DNA of 64,000 bases from Paenibacillus sp. FSL H7-0331. Lineage in GTDB: Bacteria > Bacillota > Bacilli > Paenibacillales > NBRC-103111. Of the stretch, positions 5,402 to 22,417 are shown one piece after another; within the stretch, counting starts at the first letter, position 1; every line of letters starts with the position of its first letter. The notes below the pieces were generated by a model that saw only the letters and a program-made list of their open reading frames with translations, had not been told where the DNA came from and did no database searches. The stretch is from positions 1 to 64,000 of the forward strand of contig NZ_MRTH01000005.1 in assembly GCF_001956045.1 (NCBI RefSeq), written 5' to 3'. A program made the translations under genes and the position numbers.

Positions 5402-6514
5402 TCAACCTCCAGCCGATTGTTGAGAAGCAGGCATTTGAACGACCGTTTTGTTTTTGCCGGATCGTTTGGCGATATAGAGTGAAGCATCTGCTCCTCTGAA
5501 CAGAGCCTCCTTGCCTTCGCCTGTGGCATAATTTTGCAGACCTATACTGATCGTGGCAGCTTTGGAATCCAATTCGGGGTGCAGCGTTAAATTGAGCTTT
5601 TGGCGGATCTGCTCAGCAATGAGATACGATTGATCCATCGACTTATCGGCAAAAATAATGGCAAATTCCTCACCTCCATAACGAGCGACAAAGTCGTTAG
5701 AGGTTACGGTTTCTTTGATGATCAAGGCAACCCGCTGTAAAATAATATCTCCTACCCAATGGCCGTAGGTATCATTAATATGCTTGAAATTATCGATATC
5801 GAGAATAGCTAGCTGCAGTGGGAGATGGTTGCGTTCATTTTGATCAATCAGCTTTTCCAAATATTCATGAAAGGTTTTATGGTTGTATAGATCCGTCAAA
5901 GCATCCATCTTGGAAAGCTTGTCCATTATAATCGTTTTGACCAGCAGCTCCTGTTTGGTCTGCGTGGTGTGCTTCAGATTGTTAAGTAGTTCAATGCCGT
6001 TGCTTGAAATGGTCATAGCGATAACAGTCACCCCGATATAGAGAAACAGGATGCCAATCAATTCATTAGTTTGCATGCTGACACGAAGAATTGGGGAGAA
6101 AGCGTATAAAGCCGTAAAGCTGACAATGACCAGGCAATAAGCAAGCAGGATACGGTTTTTGTTAAAGGAGAGTACGGACGTGAGTATCGGGAATATATAA
6201 ATCGCGGGTACGATGCCAATCGTCGGGTTCATATAAATAATGCTGGACGCGTAAATAATACCGGTCACGATTAAAAGATCGTCGTTATGGATCTTGCGAT
6301 AGCGGTACAGCATTTCGACGACCCCGGTAATGCTTGACAGCACCAAGGTCTGCATGACCAATATGTAGAAATAGGTATAGGGAGCTGAGAACGTTTCCAT
6401 ACGATGGATCAGAAATTCCAGCAGGATGGTCAATATAATCGTTATCCAATATAAGTTGAGCATCTTTCGATAGGTTTGACTTTTATTAGCCAACTCCAAT
6501 AATAAATGATTCAT
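5402..6514 (-). CDS. Membrane-bound diguanylate cyclase (GGDEF)
   Basis: 370 residues: about six transmembrane segments in the first ~190 residues (a 6TM sensor module), then a GGDEF domain from DALTDLYNHKTFHEYL to the C-terminus. The active-site loop is ARYGGEEFAIIF, an intact GGEEF, and FKHINDTYGHWVGD supplies the usual metal/GTP region, so it should make c-di-GMP from GTP. Where an inhibitory RxxD site would sit, five residues before GGEEF, the sequence reads TSND, so product inhibition through a canonical I-site is not expected. Ribosome site GGGAG. Monocistronic, convergent with purU. Confidence 0.92.
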   Translation of the reverse strand: MNHLLLELANKSQTYRKMLNLYWITIILTILLEFLIHRMETFSAPYTYFYILVMQTLVLSSITGVVEMLYRYRKIHNDDLLIVTGIIYASSIIYMNPTIGIVPAIYIFPILTSVLSFNKNRILLAYCLVIVSFTALYAFSPILRVSMQTNELIGILFLYIGVTVIAMTISSNGIELLNNLKHTTQTKQELLVKTIIMDKLSKMDALTDLYNHKTFHEYLEKLIDQNERNHLPLQLAILDIDNFKHINDTYGHWVGDIILQRVALIIKETVTSNDFVARYGGEEFAIIFADKSMDQSYLIAEQIRQKLNLTLHPELDSKAATISIGLQNYATGEGKEALFRGADASLYIAKRSGKNKTVVQMPASQQSAGG

Positions 6515-6786: not shown

Positions 6787-8796
6787 ATGACGGTAATTAA
6801 TAAAGCGATCGAACAATTATCCATCGATACGATTCGTACGTTGTCGATCGATGCAATTGAAAAAGCGAAATCCGGACATCCCGGTATGCCAATGGGTGCT
6901 GCACCTATGGGGTACGAGCTGTTTGCGAAATTTATGAATCATAACCCAGAAAATCCGACTTGGATTAACCGCGACCGCTTCGTATTATCCGCGGGCCACG
7001 GATCTATGCTGCTATACAGCTTGCTTCACTTAAGCGGTTATGACCTGCCACTGGAAGAGCTTAAGCAATTCCGTCAATGGGGAAGTAAAACTCCGGGTCA
7101 CCCTGAGGTTGGACATACAGCGGGTGTAGACGCAACTACGGGTCCTTTGGGACAAGGCTTGGGTATGGCTGTTGGTATGGCGCTTGCAGAAGCACAAATG
7201 GGTGCTGTTTATAATAAAGATAAATTCCGTGTAGTGGATCATTATACATATGTGATCTGCGGCGATGGCGACCTGATGGAAGGTCTTTCCTCCGAGGCAG
7301 CTTCACTGGCTGGACATTTAAAGCTGAGCAAGCTGGTTGTTTTGTACGATTCCAATGATATTTCGCTCGACGGCGAGCTGAACCTGTCATTCTCCGAAAA
7401 TGTCATGCAGCGTTTTGAAGGTTATGGCTGGCAGGTGCTTCGTGTAGACGACGGTAACGACCTGAATGCCATTCATGAAGCTGTGAATCAGGCTCATACG
7501 GATTATCGTCCTACTTTAATTGAAGTGAAAACGGTAATTGGATACGGCAGCCCGAACAAAGGTGGCAAGGGCGGACATTTGGGACCGCATGGTTCCCCGC
7601 TTGGTCTTGAAGAAGTAGTGTTAACCAAAAAGGCATATGCTTGGGAAGCAGAAGAAGATTTCTTCGTTCCTGCGGCTGTAACTGAGCATTTTGCTGAAGT
7701 GAAGAAAAAAGGTATCCAAACCAACGCAGCTTGGGAAAAAATGTTTGCTGAATATGCTAAAGCTTATCCAGAGCTGGCTAAGCAGTTCGAAGCAGCTATT
7801 AGCGGCGACCTTCCTGAAGGCTGGGATAAGGATATTCCAGAAGGCGCACCTGCTGATAAAGGAACACGTACGGCTTCCGGTATCGTATTGAATGCTATTG
7901 CCAAAAATGTACCTTGGCTTGTGGGTGGATCTGCTGACCTGGAGTCTTCCACAATGACGCATTTGAAGGATCTTGGCGTAGCAACAGCCAAAAATTATAA
8001 CGGCCAAAATATTTATTATGGTGTTCGTGAATTCGGTATGGGTGCTGCGGTTAACGGAATGCTGCTGCATGGAGGCTTGAAAGTATTCGGCGGTACGTTC
8101 TTCGTATTCTCGGATTACCTGCGTCCGGCAATTCGTCTGGCTTCCATCATGGGTGTACCGGCTATCTACGTATTTACACATGACAGCATCGGTGTCGGTG
8201 AAGATGGTCCTACGCATGAGCCTATCGAGCAATTGGCTGCACTTCGCGTGATTCCGGGTGTTACCGTGATCCGTCCGGCAGATGGCGACGAGACAGCGGC
8301 AGCTTGGCGTTATGCGGTTGAGAACAAAAAAGGCCCTGTAGCCTTGATCTTCTCCCGTCAAGCAGCAGCAAAACTAGATGGTACTGTGCAAGCGAAGGAT
8401 TCACTTAAACGCGGTGCCTATGTAGTGTCCGATGCGGACAATGGTCAACCACAAGCACAGCTGATCGCTACCGGTACAGAAGTACAACTGGCTATCGCTG
8501 CACAGAAGGAACTGGCTGCAGAAGGAATTGCTGTTCGTGTCATCAGTATGCCAAGCTGGGAGCTGTTCGACAAGCAATCCCAGGAATACAGAGATTCCGT
8601 TATTCTTCCTGGCGTTAAAGCGCGTCTTGCCATTGAGATGGGACATTCATTCGGTTGGGATCGTTATGTGGGTGATCAAGGCGATGTATTGGGTATTAAC
8701 CGCTTTGGTGCTTCAGCTCCGGGCCCTGTTGTTATTAAAGAGTACGGCTTCTCGGTTGAAAATGTAGTAGCACGTGTGAAGCAGCTGCTGAAATAA
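6787..8796 (+). CDS. tkt: Transketolase
   Basis: A 669-residue thiamine-diphosphate enzyme of the non-oxidative pentose phosphate pathway that transfers two-carbon units between ketoses and aldoses. Near the N-terminus [16 protein letters not shown] and [15 protein letters not shown] are typical. [20 protein letters not shown] is the ThDP/Mg motif. [17 protein letters not shown] and [20 protein letters not shown] mark the pyrimidine domain, and the C-terminal transketolase domain follows. Full family length. AGGAGG precedes the ATG, and ppnP follows 28 bases after the stop, probably in the same transcript. Confidence 0.97.
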
Positions 8797-8824
8797 GAAA
8801 GAATAGTGAAAGGAGAAACCAACC

Positions 8825-9142
8825 ATGTCACAATTTGAGCAAGTGAGCGTTATTAAAAAAGCGAATATATACTTCGACGGAAAAGTAACAAGCCGTACAA
8901 TCGTATTCGCCGATGGCACTAAAAAAACGCTTGGTATTATGCTGCCTGGTGAATATGAATTCGGAACGGATACCAAGGAAATTATGGAGATTCAAGCCGG
9001 AGAGCTGAGCGTGCTGCTGCCAGGTACGACGGAATGGCTGCAAATTAATGGTACAGGTGAATTCACGGTTCCGGCTAATGCCAAATTCAAGCTGGAAGTC
9101 AAAACAGCTACCGATTATATTTGTTCATACATTGCCGAATAA
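8825..9142 (+). CDS. ppnP: Pyrimidine/purine nucleoside phosphorylase
   Basis: A 105-residue single-domain cupin of the PpnP (YaiE/DUF1255) family, which phosphorolyses several nucleosides to base and ribose-1-phosphate. The typical opening VSVIKKANIYFDGKVTSRTI, the core TLGIMLPGEYEFGTDTKEIMEI and the ending FKLEVKTATDYICSY are all present. Its place right behind transketolase fits salvage of nucleoside ribose into the pentose phosphate pathway. The gene starts after a GAAAGGAG site and ends in a strong terminator. Confidence 0.9.
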   Translation: MSQFEQVSVIKKANIYFDGKVTSRTIVFADGTKKTLGIMLPGEYEFGTDTKEIMEIQAGELSVLLPGTTEWLQINGTGEFTVPANAKFKLEVKTATDYICSYIAE

Positions 9143-9162
9143 TAGCTTTAAAGATGAAAAAC

Positions 9163-9208
9163 AATACCCTGTCGCCCGCATGAATGGCGGTTGGACAGGG
9201 TATTTTTT
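9163..9208. terminator. Bidirectional terminator after tkt-ppnP
   Basis: An 11 bp stem (aataccctgtc / gacagggtatt) with a T-run on plus and, on minus, tgtttttc. It separates ppnP from the convergent dehydrogenase-PilZ gene. Confidence 0.8.
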
Positions 9209-9232
9209 GGGAATACGGGTATGGCGAAAAAT

Positions 9233-10495
9233 TTATTGTGTCGTGGATTCGTAATCTCCAGATATGTAAGGATAAATAGCGATATAATCTTCGATTTTCA
9301 GACGTACATAAGGTGCCAGTCCGGATAACATACATCCATAGCGGAAGCTTCCGTTGTCATTATCAATTCGGATGACCCGGGCGGTGATAGGAGGGAGATC
9401 CGCTTCCTTCGGGAAATGGATGACGACGAACATATCCATCGATAGCGGGAAAGAGGATACGATCTGCATACCGCTTTCTGATAAATCATAGAGCTTGCCC
9501 TCTATCGTTTGTCCGGTGAATGAGCCTTCCTGCTCCCATTGATGGACAGATAAAATAAGCGGGATATCGATGTGTAAACGCGTGTTTTTGCGGCGCTCGT
9601 AGCCGGAAGCTTGCTTGACGACCAGCGTCTGCATCCATTCTTCATAGCATTGAACGATTGCGCTCATATCCTGGTCACCGAAACCTTTGGATAAACCGAT
9701 CTGGAACAAGTTGGTTGCTGCTTTCTGCAGCGGCAAAGGCAGTTGATAGCTGTTGGATAGTTCACCTGCCAGCAGTAGATCCTTGAGCATTAATTGCAGT
9801 GAAAATTGTGAGCTGAAGTCACGGTTGATGATCTTGCTGCCTTTGGATTCAGCCTGTTTGCTGGAAGCTCCACCTGCGAGTACAGCTTCAATAAAACGTT
9901 CAGGATCGAGACCTGCTTTGGTTGCTATCGCCAGACCCTCGATAAAGCCAAGCAAATTGACTGCGGCTATCGTGTTGTGAGCGAGCTTCGCTGAGGAACC
10001 GGAGCCTGAAGGGCCCATATAGATGACCTTCGTTCCAATAGCTTCAAATAGTGAACGCTGTTTGTCGAGTGCCGCGAATCTGCCACCAGCCATAAAGGCG
10101 AGTGTGCCGTTCTCAGCTGCCGGTTTGCTGCCGGTAACAGGGGCATCCAGAAAGTCAACAGCGCGCTCCAGCAAAGCTTCGTGAATCTGCCGGCTTGTAT
10201 CGGGCGAGATGGTGCTGCAATCAATTACTGTCTGGCCAGCAGACAAACCGTGAATGATTCCTGTAGTACCGAGAATGACCTCCAATACAGCAGCATCGTC
10301 CTTGAGCATGGTCATAATGACGTCCGTTTCCTGAGCAACTTCAACGGCTGAACTTACAGCAACGGCACCAAGAGCGACGACCTCTGCGGTCTTATCCGCT
10401 GTGCGATTGTAAACCTTTACAGAATAACCCTTGCTCAATAAATTGATTACCATGGGCTTACCCATAGTGCCAAGACCAATAAATCCTACCCTCAT
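9233..10495 (-). CDS. 3-hydroxyisobutyrate dehydrogenase-like enzyme fused to a PilZ domain
   Basis: A 420-residue, two-part protein. Residues 1-290 are a complete beta-hydroxyacid dehydrogenase: Rossmann GLGTMG (7-12), YNRT at the end of strand 2 suggesting NADP(H) preference, DAPVTGSKPAAENGTL substrate loop, and KLAHN with the catalytic Lys near 170. Residues 297-410 form a PilZ domain with R302-KNT-R306 and D338-LSESG-342, the two signature motifs (RxxxR and D/NxSxxG) that bind c-di-GMP. The enzyme class reduces or oxidises small hydroxyacids or semialdehydes; the substrate is unknown. Ribosome site GAGGTGAT. The two parts are in one open frame, with no sign of a sequencing frameshift. Confidence 0.9.
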   Translation of the reverse strand: MRVGFIGLGTMGKPMVINLLSKGYSVKVYNRTADKTAEVVALGAVAVSSAVEVAQETDVIMTMLKDDAAVLEVILGTTGIIHGLSAGQTVIDCSTISPDTSRQIHEALLERAVDFLDAPVTGSKPAAENGTLAFMAGGRFAALDKQRSLFEAIGTKVIYMGPSGSGSSAKLAHNTIAAVNLLGFIEGLAIATKAGLDPERFIEAVLAGGASSKQAESKGSKIINRDFSSQFSLQLMLKDLLLAGELSNSYQLPLPLQKAATNLFQIGLSKGFGDQDMSAIVQCYEEWMQTLVVKQASGYERRKNTRLHIDIPLILSVHQWEQEGSFTGQTIEGKLYDLSESGMQIVSSFPLSMDMFVVIHFPKEADLPPITARVIRIDNDNGSFRYGCMLSGLAPYVRLKIEDYIAIYPYISGDYESTTQ

Positions 10496-10553
10496 TAGCT
10501 AATCACCTCTGCTCTTATTGTAGCATTTCAAGCTGACTGAGGGAATGATGGAC

Positions 10554-10583
10554 TTGCAATTCAGTTCCCAATTACAGTATCCT
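10554..10583 (+). promoter_or_regulatory. Possible pgi promoter
   Basis: TTGCAA, an 18-base spacer and TATCCT give a moderate sigma-A match. It would start transcription near 10590, just ahead of the Fur-box-like site. Confidence 0.35.
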
Positions 10584-10598
10584 ATCTTTATGTACCCA

Positions 10599-10613
10599 TG
10601 ATAATGATTATCA
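10599..10613. promoter_or_regulatory. Fur-box-like site overlapping the pgi ribosome site
   Basis: TGATAATGATTATCA is a perfect match to the 7-1-7 Bacillus Fur consensus TGATAATNATTATCA. Its last base is the first base of AGGAGG of the pgi ribosome-binding site, 12 bases before the ATG. A bound repressor here would block elongation or access just downstream of a promoter. The sequence match is direct; binding by Fur is inferred. Confidence 0.6.
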
Positions 10614-10625
10614 GGAGGATGACAA

Positions 10626-11981
10626 ATGAGTAACAAGCTAAAATTTGATTACAGCAAAGCTCTTTCTTTTATCCAGCAGCACGAGATTGACTATTTAGCC
10701 GATCCGATTCGATTGGCCCATGATCAGTTACATAACAAAACAGGAGCGGGTTCCGACTATCTGGGTTGGATCGACCTGCCAGTTGATTATGATAAGGAAG
10801 AATTCGCTCGTATTCAACAAGCGGCCAAGAAGATCCAGTCCGATTCGGATGCGCTTGTTGTTATTGGTATCGGGGGTTCATACCTTGGAGCCAGAGCAGC
10901 GATTGAAATGCTGTCCCACTCCTTCTATAACCTGCTGCCCAAGGGCAAGCGCAAGACGCCTGAAATTTATTTTGTAGGTAATAACATCAGTTCGACGTAT
11001 GTGACTCACTTGCTGCAGCTGCTTGAAGGCAAGGATGTCTCCGTCAATGTTATTTCCAAATCAGGCACAACTACAGAACCGGCTATTGCTTTCCGCATAT
11101 TCCGTGAGCTGTTGGAGAAGAAATACGGTGTTGAAGAGGCGCGTAAGCGGATCTATGCAACGACGGACCATTCCAAGGGAGCCCTGAAGAAGCTGGCAAC
11201 AGCTGAGGGATATGAATCCTTTGTTATTCCTGATGATGTAGGTGGACGTTATTCCGTGCTGACGGCTGTTGGCTTACTGCCTATTGCTGCTGCCGGTGTC
11301 GATATCGAAGCAATCATGAAAGGCGCGGCGGATGCGAAGGAAGTATACAGCAATCCAAAGCTGGAAGAAAATGAAAGCTATCAATATGCAGCTGTTCGTA
11401 ATGCCTTGTACCGTAAAGGTAAAACAACAGAAATTTTAGTTAATTATGAGCCTTCTTTGCACTTTGTATCGGAATGGTGGAAGCAGCTGTTTGGAGAAAG
11501 TGAAGGCAAGGACTACAAGGGGATTTTCCCGGCTGCTGTTGATTTCTCAACAGATCTGCACTCCATGGGGCAATTCATCCAGGAGGGAAATCGTACGTTG
11601 TTTGAAACCGTGATCCAGGTTGCGGAAGCCGCAGAGCAAATTACGATCGGTACGGACGAGAATGACTTGGACGGGCTTAATTTCCTGAGCGGTAAAACGA
11701 TGGATTTTGTTAACAAAAAAGCGTTCGAAGGCACGATGCTGGCGCACACAGATGGTGGTGTACCGAATCTGATCGTCACCATTCCGGACACAAGTGCGTA
11801 CACATTTGGATACATGGTTTATTTCTTCGAGAAAGCTTGCGGAATCAGCGGTTATTTGATGGGTGTCAATCCATTCGACCAGCCGGGTGTTGAGGCTTAC
11901 AAGAAGAATATGTTTGCTCTGTTGGGCAAGCCTGGATACGAGAAAGAAAAAGCAGAACTGGAAGCTAGACTTACCAAGTAA
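10626..11981 (+). CDS. pgi: Glucose-6-phosphate isomerase
   Basis: A 451-residue glycolytic enzyme interconverting glucose-6-phosphate and fructose-6-phosphate, of the short Gram-positive type (about 450 residues). [16 protein letters not shown] binds substrate phosphate together with [31 protein letters not shown] and the [17 protein letters not shown] region are typical of the family, and the catalytic Glu and His regions are intact. AGGAGG at 10613-10618 is the ribosome site and is overlapped by a perfect Fur-box-like palindrome, which is unusual for a housekeeping gene. A terminator follows. Confidence 0.97.
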
Positions 11982-14676: not shown

Positions 14677-16293
14677 TTAGCTCGAAGTGTGCTCCGTGCC
14701 TGTTATACTCAAAATTTCGTCGATAATCGCAGCTCTTCCATTAGGTGTCCAGCTCATGCGGACCCATTGCGGGATGGGCCTCACTTGATTGCTTTGGACG
14801 GCCTGAATGGAGTTCCATGCATGCGTCCTGCGCATGCGTTCATAGATAGCCTCGCTGCCAGCACGAACGTTTTTTTGCAGCACAAATACATAGTCAGCCT
14901 CCAGTGGAGGCAGCCATTCAGGCTGTACCTCCAACGATAGAGAATTCAAGGGCACATTTCTTCCCGGCTTTAAACCAAGGTCATGATAGATCAATTCATT
15001 CAAAGGATGGTTGACGGTACCATGGATTCGTACACAAGCGTGGGTAACTTGCATGACACTGACCGTCTTGTTCTCCATGCTATGGTGCAGCATACGCCGC
15101 GCGGACGTAACACGCAGAGCCAGTTGGTTGAGCGTAGCTTCAGCTTCCTGATGCCTGCCTAGCATGGAGCTCAGCTTGCGATAATTGACAAGCCAATCCG
15201 GACTAGTCAGCAGTATCGATGACGCGGCCAACTTGTTGAATTGATGATGGAAGCCCTGATGGTATCGATCTCCTATGATCAGGTCTGGCTGCGCATGAGC
15301 GAGCTCTTCCCATTGGGCAGCTAGCAGGTGCTCATATTCAGCATCAGACATACCCGGATAGCGGCAGCAATTAATCGAGGCGACAGGCTCGATACCAAGC
15401 GATAGCAGGTTATCATGAAACCGGGTGCAGGAAGCGACAGCAATCCTCATCCGGTTTCGCTTCATATACAGTGTAGGAGATACACCTACTGTGCGATGGA
15501 ACACACGGCTAAAATAAAATTCGTCTTCGTAGCCGACAGCCTTGGATACCTCCTTGATCCTACAATCCTGCTGGCCCAGCAGCTCCTTTGCATTGTCCAT
15601 GCGCAGACGACTTAAATAAGCAACAGGTGTTTCTCCAACCGTTTTTTTAAACAAGCGGGAAAAGGAGCTCGCTGTCAGTCCTGCCATTTTCGACAAAGTT
15701 TTCATCTCCAGCTGTTCATCAAGGTGTGTTTGCATATAAGCAAGTGCCTGCTCGATACCTTGGGCAGCAGGAAATTCAGTCGGTTGTTGTTCCGTGGAAT
15801 GCTCCATAATGGTAAGGAGCAACTCCTGAAATTGTAAATGGTGCTTGAATGGATCATTGGGCTGGAGGCTGTCCTCATACAGCTGCTGAACTTTATGAAG
15901 AAGGGTATTCGATTTGCGAATAGGGATAAGGCCAAGGGGAAACAAAGGTGTGTCTGTGCCGTGTAAATTCAACCTTTTGTGACTGCCTGCGACTGGGGGC
16001 GATGCTTGCGAACCGACATAGTGCTCAAGCTCCAGGGAGTAGTAGGCCAGGTTCTCGGACTCCACAGATAACTCTATGTTCATGCCTGGAGTTAAATAAT
16101 ATAATTGTTGAGGTTCAAATTCATAACGCTTCTGATCTATGAGCACAGTACCTTTGCCTTGGGTAATCAAGCAGAGCATCGAAACCGGAAAATGGCTGTA
16201 CTGCAGTTTGTACCGCTTATGATGCCGACGGCTGCGGATGGAGGTAAGAAAACATACAGAATGGGGCGTTGGGGAGCTGGGTTTATTTGTCAT
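14677..16293 (-). CDS. Btr-like AraC regulator with siderophore-binding domain (paralog 1)
   Basis: 538 residues. A cupin-like N-terminal part (1-~110), an AraC-type double HTH (about 170-275: MKTLSKMAGLTASSFSRLFKK and KEVSKAVGYEDEFYFSRVFHR), and a C-terminal TroA/FecB-like binding domain (about 280-530). This layout matches Bacillus Btr (YbbB), in which the binding-protein domain senses ferric siderophore and activates the uptake operon. A Fur-like site lies 46 bases upstream of the start. It is a clear paralog of the regulator at 17592-19181 and lies downstream of a solute-binding lipoprotein on the same strand. Confidence 0.88.
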   Translation of the reverse strand: MTNKPSSPTPHSVCFLTSIRSRRHHKRYKLQYSHFPVSMLCLITQGKGTVLIDQKRYEFEPQQLYYLTPGMNIELSVESENLAYYSLELEHYVGSQASPPVAGSHKRLNLHGTDTPLFPLGLIPIRKSNTLLHKVQQLYEDSLQPNDPFKHHLQFQELLLTIMEHSTEQQPTEFPAAQGIEQALAYMQTHLDEQLEMKTLSKMAGLTASSFSRLFKKTVGETPVAYLSRLRMDNAKELLGQQDCRIKEVSKAVGYEDEFYFSRVFHRTVGVSPTLYMKRNRMRIAVASCTRFHDNLLSLGIEPVASINCCRYPGMSDAEYEHLLAAQWEELAHAQPDLIIGDRYHQGFHHQFNKLAASSILLTSPDWLVNYRKLSSMLGRHQEAEATLNQLALRVTSARRMLHHSMENKTVSVMQVTHACVRIHGTVNHPLNELIYHDLGLKPGRNVPLNSLSLEVQPEWLPPLEADYVFVLQKNVRAGSEAIYERMRRTHAWNSIQAVQSNQVRPIPQWVRMSWTPNGRAAIIDEILSITGTEHTSS

Positions 16294-16338
16294 AAAAACG
16301 AGTCTCCGATCCAGAAGTTCGATTCAATCCTGTAGCAA

Positions 16339-16353
16339 CGATAATGATTCTCA
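16339..16353. promoter_or_regulatory. Fur-box-like site upstream of Btr-like regulator 1
   Basis: CGATAATGATTCTCA differs from the 7-1-7 Fur consensus at two positions. It lies 46 bp upstream of the regulator at 14677-16293, in its promoter region. Confidence 0.6.
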
Positions 16354-16464
16354 ATAACATGATTAAAACAAGGATATTGTGCTTTGTCAATCTTTTTGGA
16401 TAGCAAAAACCCCTCATTCTCACAAATGAAGTGAAAATGAAGAGCGAATAACTTTTGAGTAGAC

Positions 16465-17493
16465 TTATTGGATACCAAAGTGGGTGTAGAGATCATCCAG
16501 AATCAGCTTGGCGGCCAAGGCACCTCCACCGAGATTCCAAGTGATGGGATCAACCTTGAAATATTTTCCATTTTTAACTCCCTTTAAATCTTTCCAAATC
16601 GGGTGGGTGATCCACTCCTGCTGATATTGAAGAGTGTTTTTTTGATCGGGAAGCTGCGTGGTGATATCGAATATATAATCACCGTCTAACTGAGGAATAT
16701 GCTCTTTGGAGATGAGATTGACCCCAGAGCCGGTAAGGCCTTCAATCTGTTGTGCCTTGGGAATTGGCAGGCCGAGCTCTTTAATAATTAAACCGGGAAA
16801 GCCGGTCACATAAAATTTGGCGCTGTTATCTTTTTCGAAACGGATGATCGAAACCTCGGTTGTAGACAGCTTGTCGCCCATCTTTTGTTTGAACCCGGCT
16901 ATACGAGTATTCCAGTCCGCTATGATTGTCGCTTCGGCCTCTTGTTTATTCAAAGCGTCTGCCATCAGTTTGATATTTACCTTCCAATCAGCCAAATCTT
17001 TGGTTACAATGGTGGGCGCGATGGAAGAAAGCTGCGGATATATTTTTTCGTGACGAACTTTGGTTGCGATAATAAGGTCTGGCTTGAGAGCAATAATGGC
17101 TTCGATATTCGGCTGCGATTCCTCACCGAGGCTCTTTACCCCATTCATGGTGCTGCCCAAATAGCGGAACCATGGTTTCTGATCGACAGATTCTACCGCA
17201 CCGACTGGCTTGACTCCAAGTGCGACTCCAATGTCGACGGCGCCGGCAAATAAATAAACAACACGCTCCGGTGTTTTGTTGAGAGTGAATGTGCCCATTT
17301 CATGGGTTATCGTTTTATTGACTATAGCGGTGCTGCTGTTCTCTTTGACGGGTACTGCTTCCTTCGGTTGAACCGCTTCAGTAGCGGCGGGTGCTGAATC
17401 ACCGGGACTGCCGCCAAGATTGGTGTGAGTAATGCCGCAGCCTGCCAGGACCAGCAGCAGGATGAGTCCGATTAAAATAGATATGTGCTTCAT
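16465..17493 (-). CDS. Ferric-siderophore ABC transporter substrate-binding lipoprotein (1)
   Basis: 342 residues with a lipoprotein signal peptide (MKHISILIGLILLLVLAGC, lipobox L-A-G-C), a Ser/Ala/Pro linker to about residue 55, then a class III (FecB/FeuA-type) binding fold: TFTLNKTPERVVYLF, IIALKPDLIIATK and VSIIRFEKDNSAKFYVTGFPG. It probably delivers a ferric siderophore to a FecCD permease, perhaps the permeases at 19272-21313, since no permease is beside it. Fur-like box 33 bases upstream; AraC regulator 1 lies downstream. It is a paralog of the protein at 21425-22417. Confidence 0.92.
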   Translation of the reverse strand: MKHISILIGLILLLVLAGCGITHTNLGGSPGDSAPAATEAVQPKEAVPVKENSSTAIVNKTITHEMGTFTLNKTPERVVYLFAGAVDIGVALGVKPVGAVESVDQKPWFRYLGSTMNGVKSLGEESQPNIEAIIALKPDLIIATKVRHEKIYPQLSSIAPTIVTKDLADWKVNIKLMADALNKQEAEATIIADWNTRIAGFKQKMGDKLSTTEVSIIRFEKDNSAKFYVTGFPGLIIKELGLPIPKAQQIEGLTGSGVNLISKEHIPQLDGDYIFDITTQLPDQKNTLQYQQEWITHPIWKDLKGVKNGKYFKVDPITWNLGGGALAAKLILDDLYTHFGIQ

Positions 17494-17525
17494 ACTTCTC
17501 TTCCCCCTGTTAAGTTAGCATCTAT

Positions 17526-17540
17526 TGATAATGATTTTCA
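17526..17540. promoter_or_regulatory. Fur-box-like site upstream of siderophore-binding protein 1
   Basis: TGATAATGATTTTCA differs from TGATAATNATTATCA at one position, and dyad bases continue on the right (TTATTG). It lies 33 bp upstream of the lipoprotein start on the minus strand. Confidence 0.75.
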
Positions 17541-17591
17541 TTATTGATGCTAACCTTCTGGGCGTTGGAAGTCCATATCGTAATTTGTCTG

Positions 17592-19181
17592 TTATTTTGT
17601 ATTTTTTTGATACTCTACTAGTTGGTCAATAATTGCCCTTCTGCCACCAGACGTCCAACTCATACTAAACCAATTGGGAATTAACATAACATTACCTTGT
17701 TGAACGGCTTTGATCGCCTTCCATGCATGCGTACCGCACATTTGCTCGTACATGTTTTCACTGCCCGCACGCAGATGGTTTTTTTGAATAAACAAATGGT
17801 CGGTCTCCAGTGGAGGAAGCCATTGGGGAGCCAACTCAATGCTTTTGGTTTGCATTGGCATATTGCTGCCGGGTTTTAAACCAAGCTCCTGGTAGATCAA
17901 TTCATTGAGAGGATGATCGATCGTTCCCTGAATCCTGACAAAAAGGTGGTTGACCTGCATGAGCGTAACCGTCTGATTATCCATACTGCGTGCAAGCAGT
18001 CTCCGTGCTGCAGTCGTATGTAAAGCCAACTGGTTAAGTTCCTGCTCCGCCTTTTCCTCTCGTCCAAGCAGCTCGGCTATATTTCGATAGTTGACGCTCC
18101 AATCTGGATCTACGGCAAACATCACGGTAGGTGTAATCCTGATTAATTCCTCTTGAAACTCTTGATGGAACATGTCGGCGATGATGACGTCGGGCTGAGC
18201 GTGCTCAAGCTCCTGCAAACGGCAGGACAAAACATGAGCGTGCTCGCTGTCTCCCATACCGGGATATTTGAAGCAGTTCACATGAACGATAGGTTCAATG
18301 CCAAGTGAACGCAGGCTGTCCTGGAATTTCAAGCAAGAGACAACGGCGATCTTCAACCTATACCTCGTCATGAAAAAAGTAGGGGATACGCCGACCTTTT
18401 GCTGGAACATTCGGCTAAAATAAAACTCATTTTCATAGCCGACTGCTGCGGATACCTGCTTAATCTTGTATCCGGGTTTGGACAACAGGTGTTTGGCACT
18501 TTCCATACGCAGTTGAGTCAAATATTCAATGGGGGATACCCCTATGGTTTTCTTGAATAATCGGGAAAAGGAGCTGGTCGTCATCCCGGCCATTGTCGCA
18601 AGCTTGACCATGTCGAGCTTGCCTGCAAAGTTCGATTGCATATACGCTGTGATCTGCTGTATGCTGTGCCGAATTAAAGGTTTCACCGAATCATGGGCAG
18701 GAGCCTGAAGAATTTGCTGCAGCAGCTCCTGAAATTGAATATGAGACTGGAAAGGATCCGCAGGCTCATTTCTTTTCTCATAGAGGGAGTGAAGTAGTGC
18801 TTGAACATTTGCGGGATCTTCCATAGGAATATAACCCGCAGGAAATGCAGGCAGAGGCGCACGGAGTAGTTGAATGCTTTGATGGTTTTTACCCACAGCA
18901 GCACTTGTGAAATGTCTGAACATAACTGTGTAATACTCGATCGACTCGGACTGTAAAGCGATTTCGATATCCATGTTGGGCTTGAATATATAGAGCTGCA
19001 GAGGTTTGATTTCAATAAGCTTACTATCGATCAATAGTGTCCCCGTGCCCTTGATAATGAAGCAAATCATTGTGACCGGAAAATGACGATATCGCATCAG
19101 CTCCTTACAGTAACGACGTTTGTGTATCGAGTGCAGAAAGTAAATCGAATACGGAGCTGGGTATCGCGGCTGGTTATTCAT
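17592..19181 (-). CDS. Btr-like AraC regulator with siderophore-binding domain (paralog 2)
   Basis: 529 residues with the same three-part layout as the regulator at 14677: a cupin-like N-terminus, AraC HTH (MVKLATMAGMTTSSFSRLFKK and KQVSAAVGYENEFYFSRMFQQ), and a TroA-like C-terminal domain. It follows the two permease genes on the same strand after a hairpin, in the order known from Bacillus feu loci, where the neighbouring regulator activates uptake when siderophore is bound. The ATG at 19181 has GGAG 8 bases upstream; a start at 19205 would add eight residues without a site. Confidence 0.88.
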   Translation of the reverse strand: MNNQPRYPAPYSIYFLHSIHKRRYCKELMRYRHFPVTMICFIIKGTGTLLIDSKLIEIKPLQLYIFKPNMDIEIALQSESIEYYTVMFRHFTSAAVGKNHQSIQLLRAPLPAFPAGYIPMEDPANVQALLHSLYEKRNEPADPFQSHIQFQELLQQILQAPAHDSVKPLIRHSIQQITAYMQSNFAGKLDMVKLATMAGMTTSSFSRLFKKTIGVSPIEYLTQLRMESAKHLLSKPGYKIKQVSAAVGYENEFYFSRMFQQKVGVSPTFFMTRYRLKIAVVSCLKFQDSLRSLGIEPIVHVNCFKYPGMGDSEHAHVLSCRLQELEHAQPDVIIADMFHQEFQEELIRITPTVMFAVDPDWSVNYRNIAELLGREEKAEQELNQLALHTTAARRLLARSMDNQTVTLMQVNHLFVRIQGTIDHPLNELIYQELGLKPGSNMPMQTKSIELAPQWLPPLETDHLFIQKNHLRAGSENMYEQMCGTHAWKAIKAVQQGNVMLIPNWFSMSWTSGGRRAIIDQLVEYQKNTK

Positions 19182-19225
19182 GAGCAGGTCTCCAATCCAT
19201 CGCATGAATCGATAATAATCAAGGA

Positions 19226-19267
19226 TAGCCAGACGAACCCTTCCTTGTGCGTAAGGTTCGTCTGGCT
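19226..19267 (-). terminator. Hairpin between permease gene and Btr-like regulator 2
   Basis: A 13 bp perfect inverted repeat (agccagacgaacc / ggttcgtctggct) follows the second permease stop on the minus strand. The downstream tract is only moderately T-rich, so it could be a terminator or a partial attenuator that lowers read-through into the regulator. Confidence 0.65.
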
Positions 19268-19271
19268 CCTG

Positions 19272-20315
19272 TTATACGGCATTACGATTTGTGTACAACA
19301 AATAAATAAAGAACGGGGCCCCTACTGCAGAAGTAAACACACCTACAGGGATGTCCAAAGGGAGAAAAAAGGTGCGGCCAACGAGATCGGCAACGACGAC
19401 GATGATCGCTCCAAGCAGCGCAGAGACTGGCAGTATACTGCCGAAGCTGGTGCCGACCAGCTTGCGAGCCATATGTGGGGCCAGCAGTCCGACAAACCCG
19501 ATACCACCGCCCACGGAAACGGCTGATCCGGCCAAGGCAACGCTTAACAGCAGCAGCACCAATCGATTGCGCTCTACATGGCTTCCAGCGCTGGCAGCGA
19601 CATCGTCCCCGAGCTGCTGAATATTGACGTGCCGAGCCAGCAGGAAGGCTAGTGGAATCAGAATGACAGTCCACGGCAGCAGCGTAAATACATTTTCCCA
19701 ATTTGTTCCGTATACAGATCCCGTCAGCCATAGATAGGCTTGGCCCGCATCATTTTTGGGACTGAAAATGATCATCATCGTGGTCATGGCCGACATCAGG
19801 GTGGAGACTCCTACGCCAACCAGAATAAGACGAAATGGGGTGACTCCTTTTTTCCAGGCAAGCGCATAGAGGACAACGGCCACAACGGCTGCTCCGAGCA
19901 TGGCGGATACCGGAAGCAGTCGTATACTCATCGTTTTGGCCAAGTACGTCAGAAAGACAACAGCCGCTACGGCAGCACCACCCGTCACGCCCAATATGTC
20001 TGGTGACGCCATGGGGTTACGGATCATCCCTTGCAGGATCGCACCTGAGGATGCTAATGAAGCACCGATCAGCAGTGCCAGCAATATGCGAGGAAGACGC
20101 AGCTTTTGAATAATCATGGTTTGATCCTCAGCGCCTATACCTAATACACTGCGAATGACATCAAGGGGCTGGATATACATTTCTCCAAGTCCTGTACTGA
20201 CCACAAATGCGGTCGTGCATACAATGAGCAGCGCTGCAATGACGAGCACGGTTCTCTTATGAATTAAAAAGGATATACGCCCGCGGACAGAGCGGATGGG
20301 GACATACGGTTTCAT
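19272..20315 (-). CDS. Ferric-siderophore ABC permease, FecCD family (FeuC-like)
   Basis: 347 residues, around nine to ten transmembrane helices. Typical FecCD blocks are present: LRLPRILLALLIGASLASSGAILQ, NPMASPDILGVTGGAA, and near the C-terminus GGGIGFVGLLAPHMARKLVG, LLGAIIVVVADLVGRTFFLPLDIPVGVFTSAVGAPFFIYLLY. It forms the membrane channel with the partner permease. Its start overlaps the partner stop (ATGA). No ATPase gene is nearby; in Bacillus FeuBC use the distant ATPase YusV, so a shared ATPase elsewhere is likely. Confidence 0.93.
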   Translation of the reverse strand: MKPYVPIRSVRGRISFLIHKRTVLVIAALLIVCTTAFVVSTGLGEMYIQPLDVIRSVLGIGAEDQTMIIQKLRLPRILLALLIGASLASSGAILQGMIRNPMASPDILGVTGGAAVAAVVFLTYLAKTMSIRLLPVSAMLGAAVVAVVLYALAWKKGVTPFRLILVGVGVSTLMSAMTTMMIIFSPKNDAGQAYLWLTGSVYGTNWENVFTLLPWTVILIPLAFLLARHVNIQQLGDDVAASAGSHVERNRLVLLLLSVALAGSAVSVGGGIGFVGLLAPHMARKLVGTSFGSILPVSALLGAIIVVVADLVGRTFFLPLDIPVGVFTSAVGAPFFIYLLYTNRNAV

Positions 20316-21313
20316 GTTTTGGCAATCCCCTTTCGAGCCATATAGATAAAGAACGGAGCTCCGATCATGGCGGTCATAACACCAACCGGCATTTCTTCAG
20401 GAATCATAATAAAGCGGGCGACCAGATCGGCCAAAATCAGCAGAATCGCACCGAGCAGCGCACAATAGGGAATGACCCAGCGATAATCCATTCCAACGAA
20501 AAACCGGGATATATGCGGAATGACAATGCCGATAAAACCGATGGGTCCGGCGACAGAAACTGAGCTGCCAGCGAGCACGACAATGATGATCGCTGCCACC
20601 GTCTTGATCACAACTGTACGCTGTCCAAGGCTCTTGGCAGTATCCTCACCCATCAACAGTAAATTGACATCGCGTGCAATGACACAAGCAGCCAGCCAGC
20701 ATACGATCATATAAGGAAGCACAGCAAGCAGCATGTCCGGCGAGCGTCCGGCGATGGACCCGGTTAACCAGAATAATACACTGCTCAGTACTTGTTTGTT
20801 GACGACCAGCATCGCTTGTGTCAATGAAGAGAATAAAGCTGTCATCGCCGAACCCGCCAAAATAATTTTGATAGGCGTTAAACCGTCTCTTCCCATGGAG
20901 CCGAGCACATACACAGCTGCTGCAGCGGCAGCAGCTCCCAGGAATGAGATCCACATCAAAACGGAAAGCGAGGAGACGGATAGTACTGTTGCTGCGAATA
21001 CGATGAAAAAAGTAGCCCCTGCATTCACACCAAGCACACTTGGCGCTGCAAGCGGATTGCGGGTTAATGCCTGCATCAGGGCTCCGGCAATAGCCAGACT
21101 GGCCCCGATGGCTGCTGCGATGAATGCCCGTGGCATGCGTGTCGTATGTATAATCACCTGTTCACGAACGGCTTCATCGTAATGCATGAGCGTTTGCCAA
21201 GCGGTGGCGAAACGGAAATTGGTAGCTCCAAACATAATGCTTGAGATTAGGCAAACCAGCAATATTAAAGCGGCTGCGATCAATCCCGATACTCTCCAAA
21301 GATTAGCAGTCAT
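20312..21313 (-). CDS. Ferric-siderophore ABC permease, FecCD family (FeuB-like)
   Basis: About 333 residues with FecCD features: TRMPRAFIAAAIGASLAIAGALMQ, NPLAAPSVLGVNAGA, VAGPIGFIGIVIPHISRFFVG and the ending IPEEMPVGVMTAMIGAPFFIYMA. It partners the downstream permease, with which it overlaps by four bases. The ATG at 21313 has GGAGG 7 bases upstream; a start at 21370 would add 19 residues and run into the intergenic hairpin. Confidence 0.92.
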   Translation of the reverse strand: MTANLWRVSGLIAAALILLVCLISSIMFGATNFRFATAWQTLMHYDEAVREQVIIHTTRMPRAFIAAAIGASLAIAGALMQALTRNPLAAPSVLGVNAGATFFIVFAATVLSVSSLSVLMWISFLGAAAAAAAVYVLGSMGRDGLTPIKIILAGSAMTALFSSLTQAMLVVNKQVLSSVLFWLTGSIAGRSPDMLLAVLPYMIVCWLAACVIARDVNLLLMGEDTAKSLGQRTVVIKTVAAIIIVVLAGSSVSVAGPIGFIGIVIPHISRFFVGMDYRWVIPYCALLGAILLILADLVARFIMIPEEMPVGVMTAMIGAPFFIYMARKGIAKT

Positions 21314-21341
21314 GGATATCCTCCAGAAATGTCCTGATGAT

Positions 21342-21380
21342 GCATAAGAGAGAATGAGCCCACGGCTCATTCTCCTATGC
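21342..21380 (-). terminator. Intercistronic hairpin between binding-protein and permease genes
   Basis: gcataagagagaatgagcc and ggctcattctcctatgc pair around a three-base loop, giving a very stable stem of about 17 bp. It has no long T-run. Such hairpins between binding-protein and permease genes usually protect or partly terminate the upstream message so more binding protein is made. Confidence 0.6.
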
Positions 21381-21424
21381 GTTACTTCTATTCCATTAAT
21401 AAATATGAAATGGAGCTGAACAGT

Positions 21425-22417
21425 CTATTTGATCTCAAAATATTTATAAAGATCATCCAACAGCGATTTGGCTGCCGTACTGCCTGCACCCAGATTCCAT
21501 GTCACAACATCGACTTTAAAGTATTTACCGTTTTTGACGCCCTTAAGGTCTTTCCAGAGAGGATGTGAGGTCCATTCAGATTGAGTTTTTCTTGCATTTG
21601 ATCCATCATCCACCTGAGACGTAATATCAAAGATATAGTCGCCGTCCAGCTGTGGCATTTGCTCCTTGGAGGTCAGATTGATCACGGTTTTACCCTCAAC
21701 CTGCTGTGCCTTTGGTCTTGGCAATCCGAGCTCCTTGAAGATGGTGCCTGCAAAGCCGGTTGAGTAAATCCGAGCACTGCCATCCCGCTCGAAGCGAATA
21801 ATCGATACTTCGGATTTGCCGATTCGATCTCCCATTTTTTGCTTAAATGTAGCGACTCCTGTATCCCATTCCTTGATGATTTTTGCTGCTTCATCCTGCT
21901 TATTTAATGCTTCCGCAGCAATGTTCAGATTTTCCTTCCAGGAAAATAAATCACCCACAATGATGGTCGGAGCTATGGAATTAAGCTGTGGATATACTTT
22001 CTCATTCCTGGTTTTTTGCCCGATGATCAGGTCAGGCTTAAGAGCGATAATAGCTTCGATATTCGGCTGCAATTCATCACCGAGGTTCTTAACCCCATCC
22101 ATTTTCGAACCCAAATACTTGTACCACGGTTTTTCATCCCACGATTCTACCGCGCCTACTGGCTTCACGTTTAAAGCAGTAGTGATGTCTACCATGCCGC
22201 TGAATAGGACAACAACGCGTTCAGGTACCTTTTTCAAGGTAGTGGTCCCCATGGTGTGGGTAATGGTTTTGTCATAAGCAACGGCTGGCTTGGACGACGC
22301 TGCATCCTTTCCAGGCGTAGTGCCAGTGGCTGCGCCTGTAGAGGCAACTGGACTCGATCCGCAACCAGCGGCAAACAATAATACAACGAATGCTAATAAT
22401 AAGTGCAGCTGTTTCAT
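21425..22417 (-). CDS. Ferric-siderophore ABC transporter substrate-binding lipoprotein (2, FeuA-like)
   Basis: 330 residues. Signal peptide with lipobox FAAGC (MKQLHLLLAFVVLLFAAGC), a Gly/Ala/Ser linker, then a FecB-type binding fold closely similar to the protein at 16465: ITHTMGTTTLKKVPERVVVLF, IIALKPDLIIGQK, VSIIRFERDGSARIYSTGFAG. It captures ferric siderophore outside the membrane for the two downstream permeases. The nitroreductase gene ends 34 bases upstream, so the order on this strand is nitroreductase, binding protein, permease, permease. Confidence 0.93.
   Translation of the reverse strand: MKQLHLLLAFVVLLFAAGCGSSPVASTGAATGTTPGKDAASSKPAVAYDKTITHTMGTTTLKKVPERVVVLFSGMVDITTALNVKPVGAVESWDEKPWYKYLGSKMDGVKNLGDELQPNIEAIIALKPDLIIGQKTRNEKVYPQLNSIAPTIIVGDLFSWKENLNIAAEALNKQDEAAKIIKEWDTGVATFKQKMGDRIGKSEVSIIRFERDGSARIYSTGFAGTIFKELGLPRPKAQQVEGKTVINLTSKEQMPQLDGDYIFDITSQVDDGSNARKTQSEWTSHPLWKDLKGVKNGKYFKVDVVTWNLGAGSTAAKSLLDDLYKYFEIK

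Follow-up and report, generated by a model that had tools for sequence, protein, structure and literature searches.

Can the second messenger cyclic dimeric guanosine monophosphate (c-di-GMP) set a redox step? c-di-GMP is best known for its control of slime and swimming, and most known outputs of PilZ domains concern glycan synthesis, motility or protein partners. To our knowledge, there are few examples of its direct control of intermediary metabolism. The question is raised by a gene on the minus strand (9233..10495) of a 64,000-nucleotide stretch of Paenibacillus sp. FSL H7-0331 (contig NZ_MRTH01000005.1), hereafter the window. From an ATG start, the gene encodes a fusion protein of 420 amino acids that joins a beta-hydroxyacid dehydrogenase to a PilZ domain. 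Slightly more than a quarter (109/392) of the genomes sampled from the order Paenibacillales encode receptor and complete redox enzyme as a single polypeptide. That many soil bacteria of the Paenibacillus group carry the fusion suggests that c-di-GMP may steer a metabolic reaction directly. Since both parts reside in a single polypeptide, and natural PilZ-less orthologues at the same locus provide matched controls, the control of a redox step by c-di-GMP is testable.

The fusion gene and its conservation

A first-pass annotation, made from the sequence alone, had described a complete dehydrogenase continuing in frame into a PilZ domain, and this description holds: the gene is a single open reading frame of 420 codons, and each Pfam domain scores above its cut-off. 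NAD_binding_2 covers residues 2-161 (175.5 bits vs a cut-off of 21), NAD_binding_11 residues 164-283 (100.9 vs 30) and PilZ (PF07238) residues 300-405 (40.1 vs 22.5; model positions 1-100 of 102). All on the minus strand, the dehydrogenase part (residues 1-289) corresponds to 9629..10495, the linker (about residues 290-299) to 9599..9628 and the PilZ domain to 9281..9598. The motifs quoted by the annotation were also correctly placed: the nucleotide-binding loop GLGTMG (residues 7-12; 10460..10477), DAPVTGSKPAAENGTL (residues 117-132), KLAHN (residues 170-174; 9974..9988), RKNTR (the RxxxR motif; residues 302-306; 9578..9592) and DLSESG (the DxSxxG motif; residues 337-342; 9470..9487). DAPVTGSK (residues 117-124; 10124..10147) is presumably the substrate loop, and we take K170 to be the expected catalytic lysine and N174 its partner asparagine.

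The fusion was followed in two sets of sequences. Of 5699 matches obtained from about 5.8 billion proteins, the best 120 (97% down to about 57% identity) are referred to as the relatives; when the PilZ part alone was used to scan 84,980 species genomes, 109 stretches were confirmed, and the best 80 of them are referred to as the loci. The shared two-domain architecture had been set beforehand as a check: PF07238 and the dehydrogenase domains are both present in 120/120 relatives, and in 80/80 loci the full-length match lies within one stop-free frame (410-691 codons). The loci come from Paenibacillus, Cohnella, Gordonibacillus and bins labeled Paenibacillaceae or Bacilli, and in Paenibacillus periandrae (L001) the whole frame is conserved at 98% identity. 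Because the whole frame is conserved in this way, chance or read error is excluded, and the dehydrogenase-PilZ fusion is confirmed as real. With 25 further loci from the order, the number of fused loci rises to 105 (3 of them duplicates), and in all 105 aligned PilZ-bearing loci the dehydrogenase and PilZ matches share one stop-free frame, with L125 doing so only from residue 58 of the dehydrogenase onward. In the latter copy (genome G039, about 7620-7790) the fusion gene matches as two pieces meeting near dehydrogenase residue 56, which may represent either a frameshift near that residue or a sequence error.

The motifs of both parts are intact. In the alignment, 120/120 relatives keep GxGxxG (G7, G9 and G12), N30/R31, D117-V120, G122, K170, N174, K238 and D239. 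In the PilZ part, R302, R306, S339 and G342 are present in 120/120 relatives and D337 in 119/120 (N in P0025); RxxxR and DxSxxG are complete in 119/120 relatives and in 104/105 fused loci, the exception (L071) being a partial match whose frame has the motif. The linker is variable in the relatives, with 14 to 37 amino acids in the stretch from W287 up to R301.

The dehydrogenase part

By the Pfam cut-offs, the GxGxxG motif and the Lys/Asn pair, the protein can be assigned to the beta-hydroxyacid dehydrogenase superfamily. The first-pass name, "3-hydroxyisobutyrate dehydrogenase-like", was right about a complete enzyme of this superfamily and too specific about its member, since the score against TIGR01692 (3-hydroxyisobutyrate dehydrogenase) is 205.7 bits vs a cut-off of 291.6, below the equivalog level. 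The tartronate semialdehyde reductase families NF008592 (259.6 vs 397) and TIGR01505 (246.2 vs 340.75) also remain below their cut-offs; the fusion protein reaches none of the NCBIfam equivalog cut-offs, and the attempt to name the substrate from families failed for this reason.

Known structures give some clues. The best PDB match is a tartronate semialdehyde reductase (1vpd; 41% identity, TM-score 0.96 by target length), which has the same fold and the same coenzyme and catalytic motifs. It differs in the substrate loop (VSGGEPKAIDGTL in 1vpd vs VTGSKPAAENGTL in the fusion protein), and the PilZ domain is a feature of the fusion protein. A gamma-hydroxybutyrate dehydrogenase of Geobacter (3pef; 39% identity, TM-score 0.96 by target length) has GSK..AE.GTL and NR(S/T) in common with the fusion protein. 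The chains of 3pef, 3pdu (also Geobacter) and 3doj (Arabidopsis glyoxylate reductase GLYR1) have no PilZ domain and match only residues 2-285; the function of the fusion protein is a prediction.

The PilZ part and its free-standing relatives

The predicted structure of the PilZ part fits the beta-barrel fold of solved PilZ domains (Foldseek), with BcsA as the top structural match; by sequence, the PilZ part matches no PDB chain at E values up to 1. The loop QWEQEGSFTGQ (residues 319-329; 9509..9541, minus strand) is a signature of this PilZ subfamily, with W320, G324, F326, G328 and Q329 in 120/120 relatives.

Free-standing members of the subfamily are found outside the order. In a sample of 398 genomes of the class, which overlaps the order, there are five PilZ matches: two in fused genes of the order (G001 and G007) and three in free-standing genes encoding 116-120 amino acids (L171, 7913-8263; L172, 8150-8509; L173, 7706-8068). 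No fusion outside the order was seen in this sample, and a phylum sample of 269 genomes, also overlapping the order, gave no match besides G001. L171 and L172 are from Desulfuribacillus (NCBI class Desulfuribacillia); their products (116-119 amino acids) are unfused, share 45-46% identity with the PilZ part, carry the similar loop VHQWEG.G.FKGQ and adjoin a gene read as dapF. There is no dehydrogenase match in the three 16-kb stretches around the free-standing genes. As a loop like QWE..G.F.GQ is present in all three free-standing relatives, it is unlikely to be a docking element specific to the dehydrogenase.

Distribution, probable origin and loss

Among the 392 genomes of the order, the 109 with a match to this PilZ subfamily (E 1e-18) each contain a single match, located in a frame of 384-691 amino acids; the weakest match is at about 9e-42. 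No free-standing copy was seen in the 392 genomes at this threshold, with up to 12 first-look candidates scored per genome. The full-length fusion query matches 290/392 genomes at 1e-80. The upstream neighbor on the opposite strand, which we take to be pgi (glucose-6-phosphate isomerase; 10626..11981, plus strand), has a relative in the same arrangement in 80/80 loci and lies within the fetched stretch in 103/105 fused loci. A dehydrogenase gene divergent from pgi is in fact common across the order with or without PilZ: of the 34 best-scoring PilZ-less dehydrogenases that were fetched, 32 adjoin pgi and were used as unfused orthologues. The other two, L124 (44-48% identity) and L126 (51%), are taken for probable paralogues because neither pgi nor any other window neighbor is found in the 14 kb fetched, and they were left out of the trees and of the unfused-orthologue counts. 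The enzyme is retained where PilZ is absent: K170, N174, K238 and D239 are kept in all 32 unfused orthologues, while K170 is found in 105/105 and N174 in 104/105 fused loci.

In the phylogenetic trees, unfused rows fall within groups of fused ones at several places. The fused/unfused label has to change 10 times on the pgi tree (130 rows) and 9 times on the dehydrogenase-part tree (131 rows), 7 of 137 loci having been dropped (short or missing pgi, or duplicates); at least 4 of these changes are forced by well-supported branches. The order probably underwent one early fusion followed by repeated loss of PilZ with the enzyme kept. This is simpler than many fusions, given the same PilZ subfamily, the same junction and the same locus; because support for the deepest branches is weak (44) and the trees are rooted at the midpoint, single origin and subsequent loss are something that we infer from the trees. 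The two parts have diverged jointly: PilZ and dehydrogenase distances correlate at r 0.82, with 0 of 2000 permutations as high and a partial r of 0.52 given pgi (99 rows), and in the locally aligned segments of the 99 rows PilZ is less diverged than the dehydrogenase (0.322 vs 0.380).

Does the PilZ part read c-di-GMP?

The view that it does is supported by the near-total conservation of the motifs and by the higher GGDEF content of genomes in which PilZ is kept. When all 392 genomes are counted loosely, the median is 3.95 GGDEF genes per Mb in fused genomes (n=109) vs 3.19 in the rest (n=283). By scored matches, the medians are 3.46 (fused) vs 2.16 per Mb (unfused; rank test p 0.0022) in 45 genomes (22/32 unfused and 23/109 fused) that were hand-picked after the loose counts were known; a phylogenetic regression on the same 45 genomes gives a slope of 1.27 GGDEF per Mb (p 0.0098). 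The sole genome of the 392 without a GGDEF match (G005) is unfused and has 2.4 Mb, a small size that may mean that the genome is reduced or incomplete.

The GGDEF cyclase that the first-pass annotation had placed about 2.7 kb from the fusion gene is there, at 5402..6514 (minus strand), with GGEEF. An orthologue (67-96% identity) in the same orientation and place is found in only 23/80 loci, which makes the adjacent gene weak evidence. Where more than 5 kb of sequence extends past the fusion gene (72 loci), 49 loci lack a GGDEF match and 2 show only a weak, oppositely oriented one. As a rule, a dedicated cyclase next door is not supported.

The reading that appears most likely is that the protein would be a c-di-GMP-controlled NADPH-dependent semialdehyde/hydroxyacid reductase. 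The dehydrogenase may prefer NADPH and act on a small semialdehyde or a 2-keto/3-hydroxy acid, for example glyoxylate, tartronate or succinic semialdehyde. RxxxR and DxSxxG would bind c-di-GMP; the bound PilZ domain, with its flexible linker, may then shift its position on the dehydrogenase oligomer, and this rearrangement would turn activity up or down. The oligomer, NADPH use, substrate class, c-di-GMP binding, and regulation of activity with its direction are all what we infer for this protein. As a whole, the best explanation, a two-domain enzyme whose PilZ receptor sets activity and which arose by one early fusion next to pgi, the receptor being lost several times later while the enzyme stayed, seems to us slightly better than an even proposition. 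We are evenly divided on the fuller statement that c-di-GMP acts as a direct switch of a soluble NADPH-dependent hydroxyacid/semialdehyde reductase by way of the enzyme's own PilZ domain, an arrangement anciently established in the order at the pgi-tkt locus, and that lineages scaling down c-di-GMP signaling shed the receptor and kept the enzyme. If true, a lifestyle signal would be wired straight into carbon and redox flow at a locus of upper glycolysis and the pentose phosphate pathway.

Several observations, besides the manner in which the 45 genomes were chosen, weigh against such control. First, no match to this PilZ at 1e-18 is found in 283/392 genomes, and the 32 pgi-linked PilZ-less orthologues retain the catalytic lysine; therefore, the control is dispensable. 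Second, the linkage to pgi is also seen in unfused loci and is thus uninformative about PilZ, and the next-door GGDEF gene is absent in most relatives. Third, well-supported branches offer only four independent pairs, with a median sign-test p of 0.25 that is not significant alone, and one of seven sister comparisons drawn by hand runs in the opposite direction. Finally, Foldseek gives the PilZ model modest matches (best E 4.5e-4); in the AlphaFold model (predicted template modeling score 0.67) PilZ is not confidently docked on the enzyme, and residues 296-307 and 320-326 have a predicted local distance difference test score below 50; and a rigid allosteric link is unnecessary because linker length varies.

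The last two features would also fit the main competing explanation, which we consider possible but rather doubtful: PilZ may be an address label, by which the c-di-GMP-bound domain brings a constitutively active dehydrogenase to a partner or site, such as an exopolysaccharide or membrane complex, with its chemistry unchanged. Some PilZ proteins act through protein-protein contacts, according to an excerpt of the review PMC12564702, and the counterpart of QWE..G.F.GQ in free-standing relatives is consistent with an external partner or a structural function. However, among the 12 window neighbors sought in the 80 loci, the commonest (pgi 80, yigZ-like 78, tetR 63, tkt 61, ppnP 60) include none that is membrane- or glycan-like. 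It is improbable that PilZ no longer reads c-di-GMP and instead binds another ligand or only stabilizes the enzyme. XC1028 is a precedent of a PilZ-like protein without a c-di-GMP switch (by a title cited in PMC12564702), and the lack of a PDB match by sequence would agree with it; yet R302, R306, D337, S339 and G342 are near-invariant while residues 303-305 and 340-341 inside the same motifs vary among the 120 relatives, and the domain tends to be absent where GGDEF genes are fewer. Less probable still is a non-catalytic dehydrogenase scaffold that makes the whole protein a pure signaling adaptor: the substrate is unassigned by equivalog families, and one fold match, N-PAC (2uyy), is titled cytokine-like nuclear factor in the PDB, but the tested catalytic and coenzyme residues persist in almost every form, fused or unfused. 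The joining of two genes by a sequencing or assembly error has a negligible probability and is ruled out by the frame conservation described above.

Relation to known systems

Among the known systems with which we compare the fusion protein are the PilZ-controlled glycan synthesis proteins BcsA and Alg44, which carry PilZ with RxxxR and DxSxxG within an enzyme or enzyme system (PMC12564702, in part). They serve polysaccharide synthesis, whereas the fusion protein is predicted to be a soluble redox enzyme. In Streptomyces, the metabolic enzyme GlgX is under direct c-di-GMP control (an excerpt of PMC9530166), but it is a glycogen-debranching enzyme whose binding part is tabulated as 'C-domain', not PilZ (a table of PMC10519070). 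The N-acyl amino acid synthases Nas343/Nas354 from metagenomic clones have a PilZ domain, and in the account of them at hand regulation is only proposed. Thus, as far as these excerpts go, PilZ-enzyme fusions outside glycan synthesis (N-acyl amino acid synthase) and a metabolic enzyme controlled directly by c-di-GMP (GlgX) have both been published already. What is unusual here is the soluble redox enzyme and the order-wide, patchy distribution. No PilZ-dehydrogenase fusion is named in the titles or abstract openings of the open-licence papers listed in the literature searches; a term search in the available text of the reviews PMC10519070 and PMC12564702 finds neither 'dehydrogenase' nor 'Paenibacillus'. 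In an excerpt on Edwardsiella (PMC2764856), the PilZ protein BcsA and a dehydrogenase are given as separate genes.

Neighboring genes

The pgi-divergent arrangement suggests that the two genes share a regulatory region or that the dehydrogenase has a role close to upper glycolysis. In 77/80 loci, about 126-305 bases separate the fusion gene from pgi; the others are L059 (891), L079 (4374) and L075 (5113). On the Cohnella side of the tree, four loci (L155, L163, L164 and L165) have a spacing of about 1.4-2.5 kb vs the usual 0.1-0.3 kb. Shortly 5' of the fusion-gene ATG lies a Shine-Dalgarno-like AGAGGTGA; GAGGTGA at 10503..10509 (minus strand) resembles a ribosome-binding site. On the other side, the plus strand carries genes that we take, from reading their translations, to be a convergent ppnP-like gene (8825..9142), some of whose loci are shortened by contig ends, and tkt (transketolase; 6787..8796). 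In the interval between the ppnP-like gene and the fusion gene, folding gives a hairpin at 9163..9204 with flanking T-runs on both strands, a possible shared terminator, though a consensus terminator scan of 8800-10700 reported none.

Farther away, the region 14677-22417 looks by eye like a duplicated iron-uptake set, the gene names being our presumption. It comprises two AraC-type regulators with a siderophore-binding-protein-like C-terminal part (14677-16293 and 17592-19205, both minus strand), interleaved with two iron-siderophore binding lipoproteins (16465-17493 and 21425-22417) and with two FecCD-type permeases (19272-20315 and 20312-21370).
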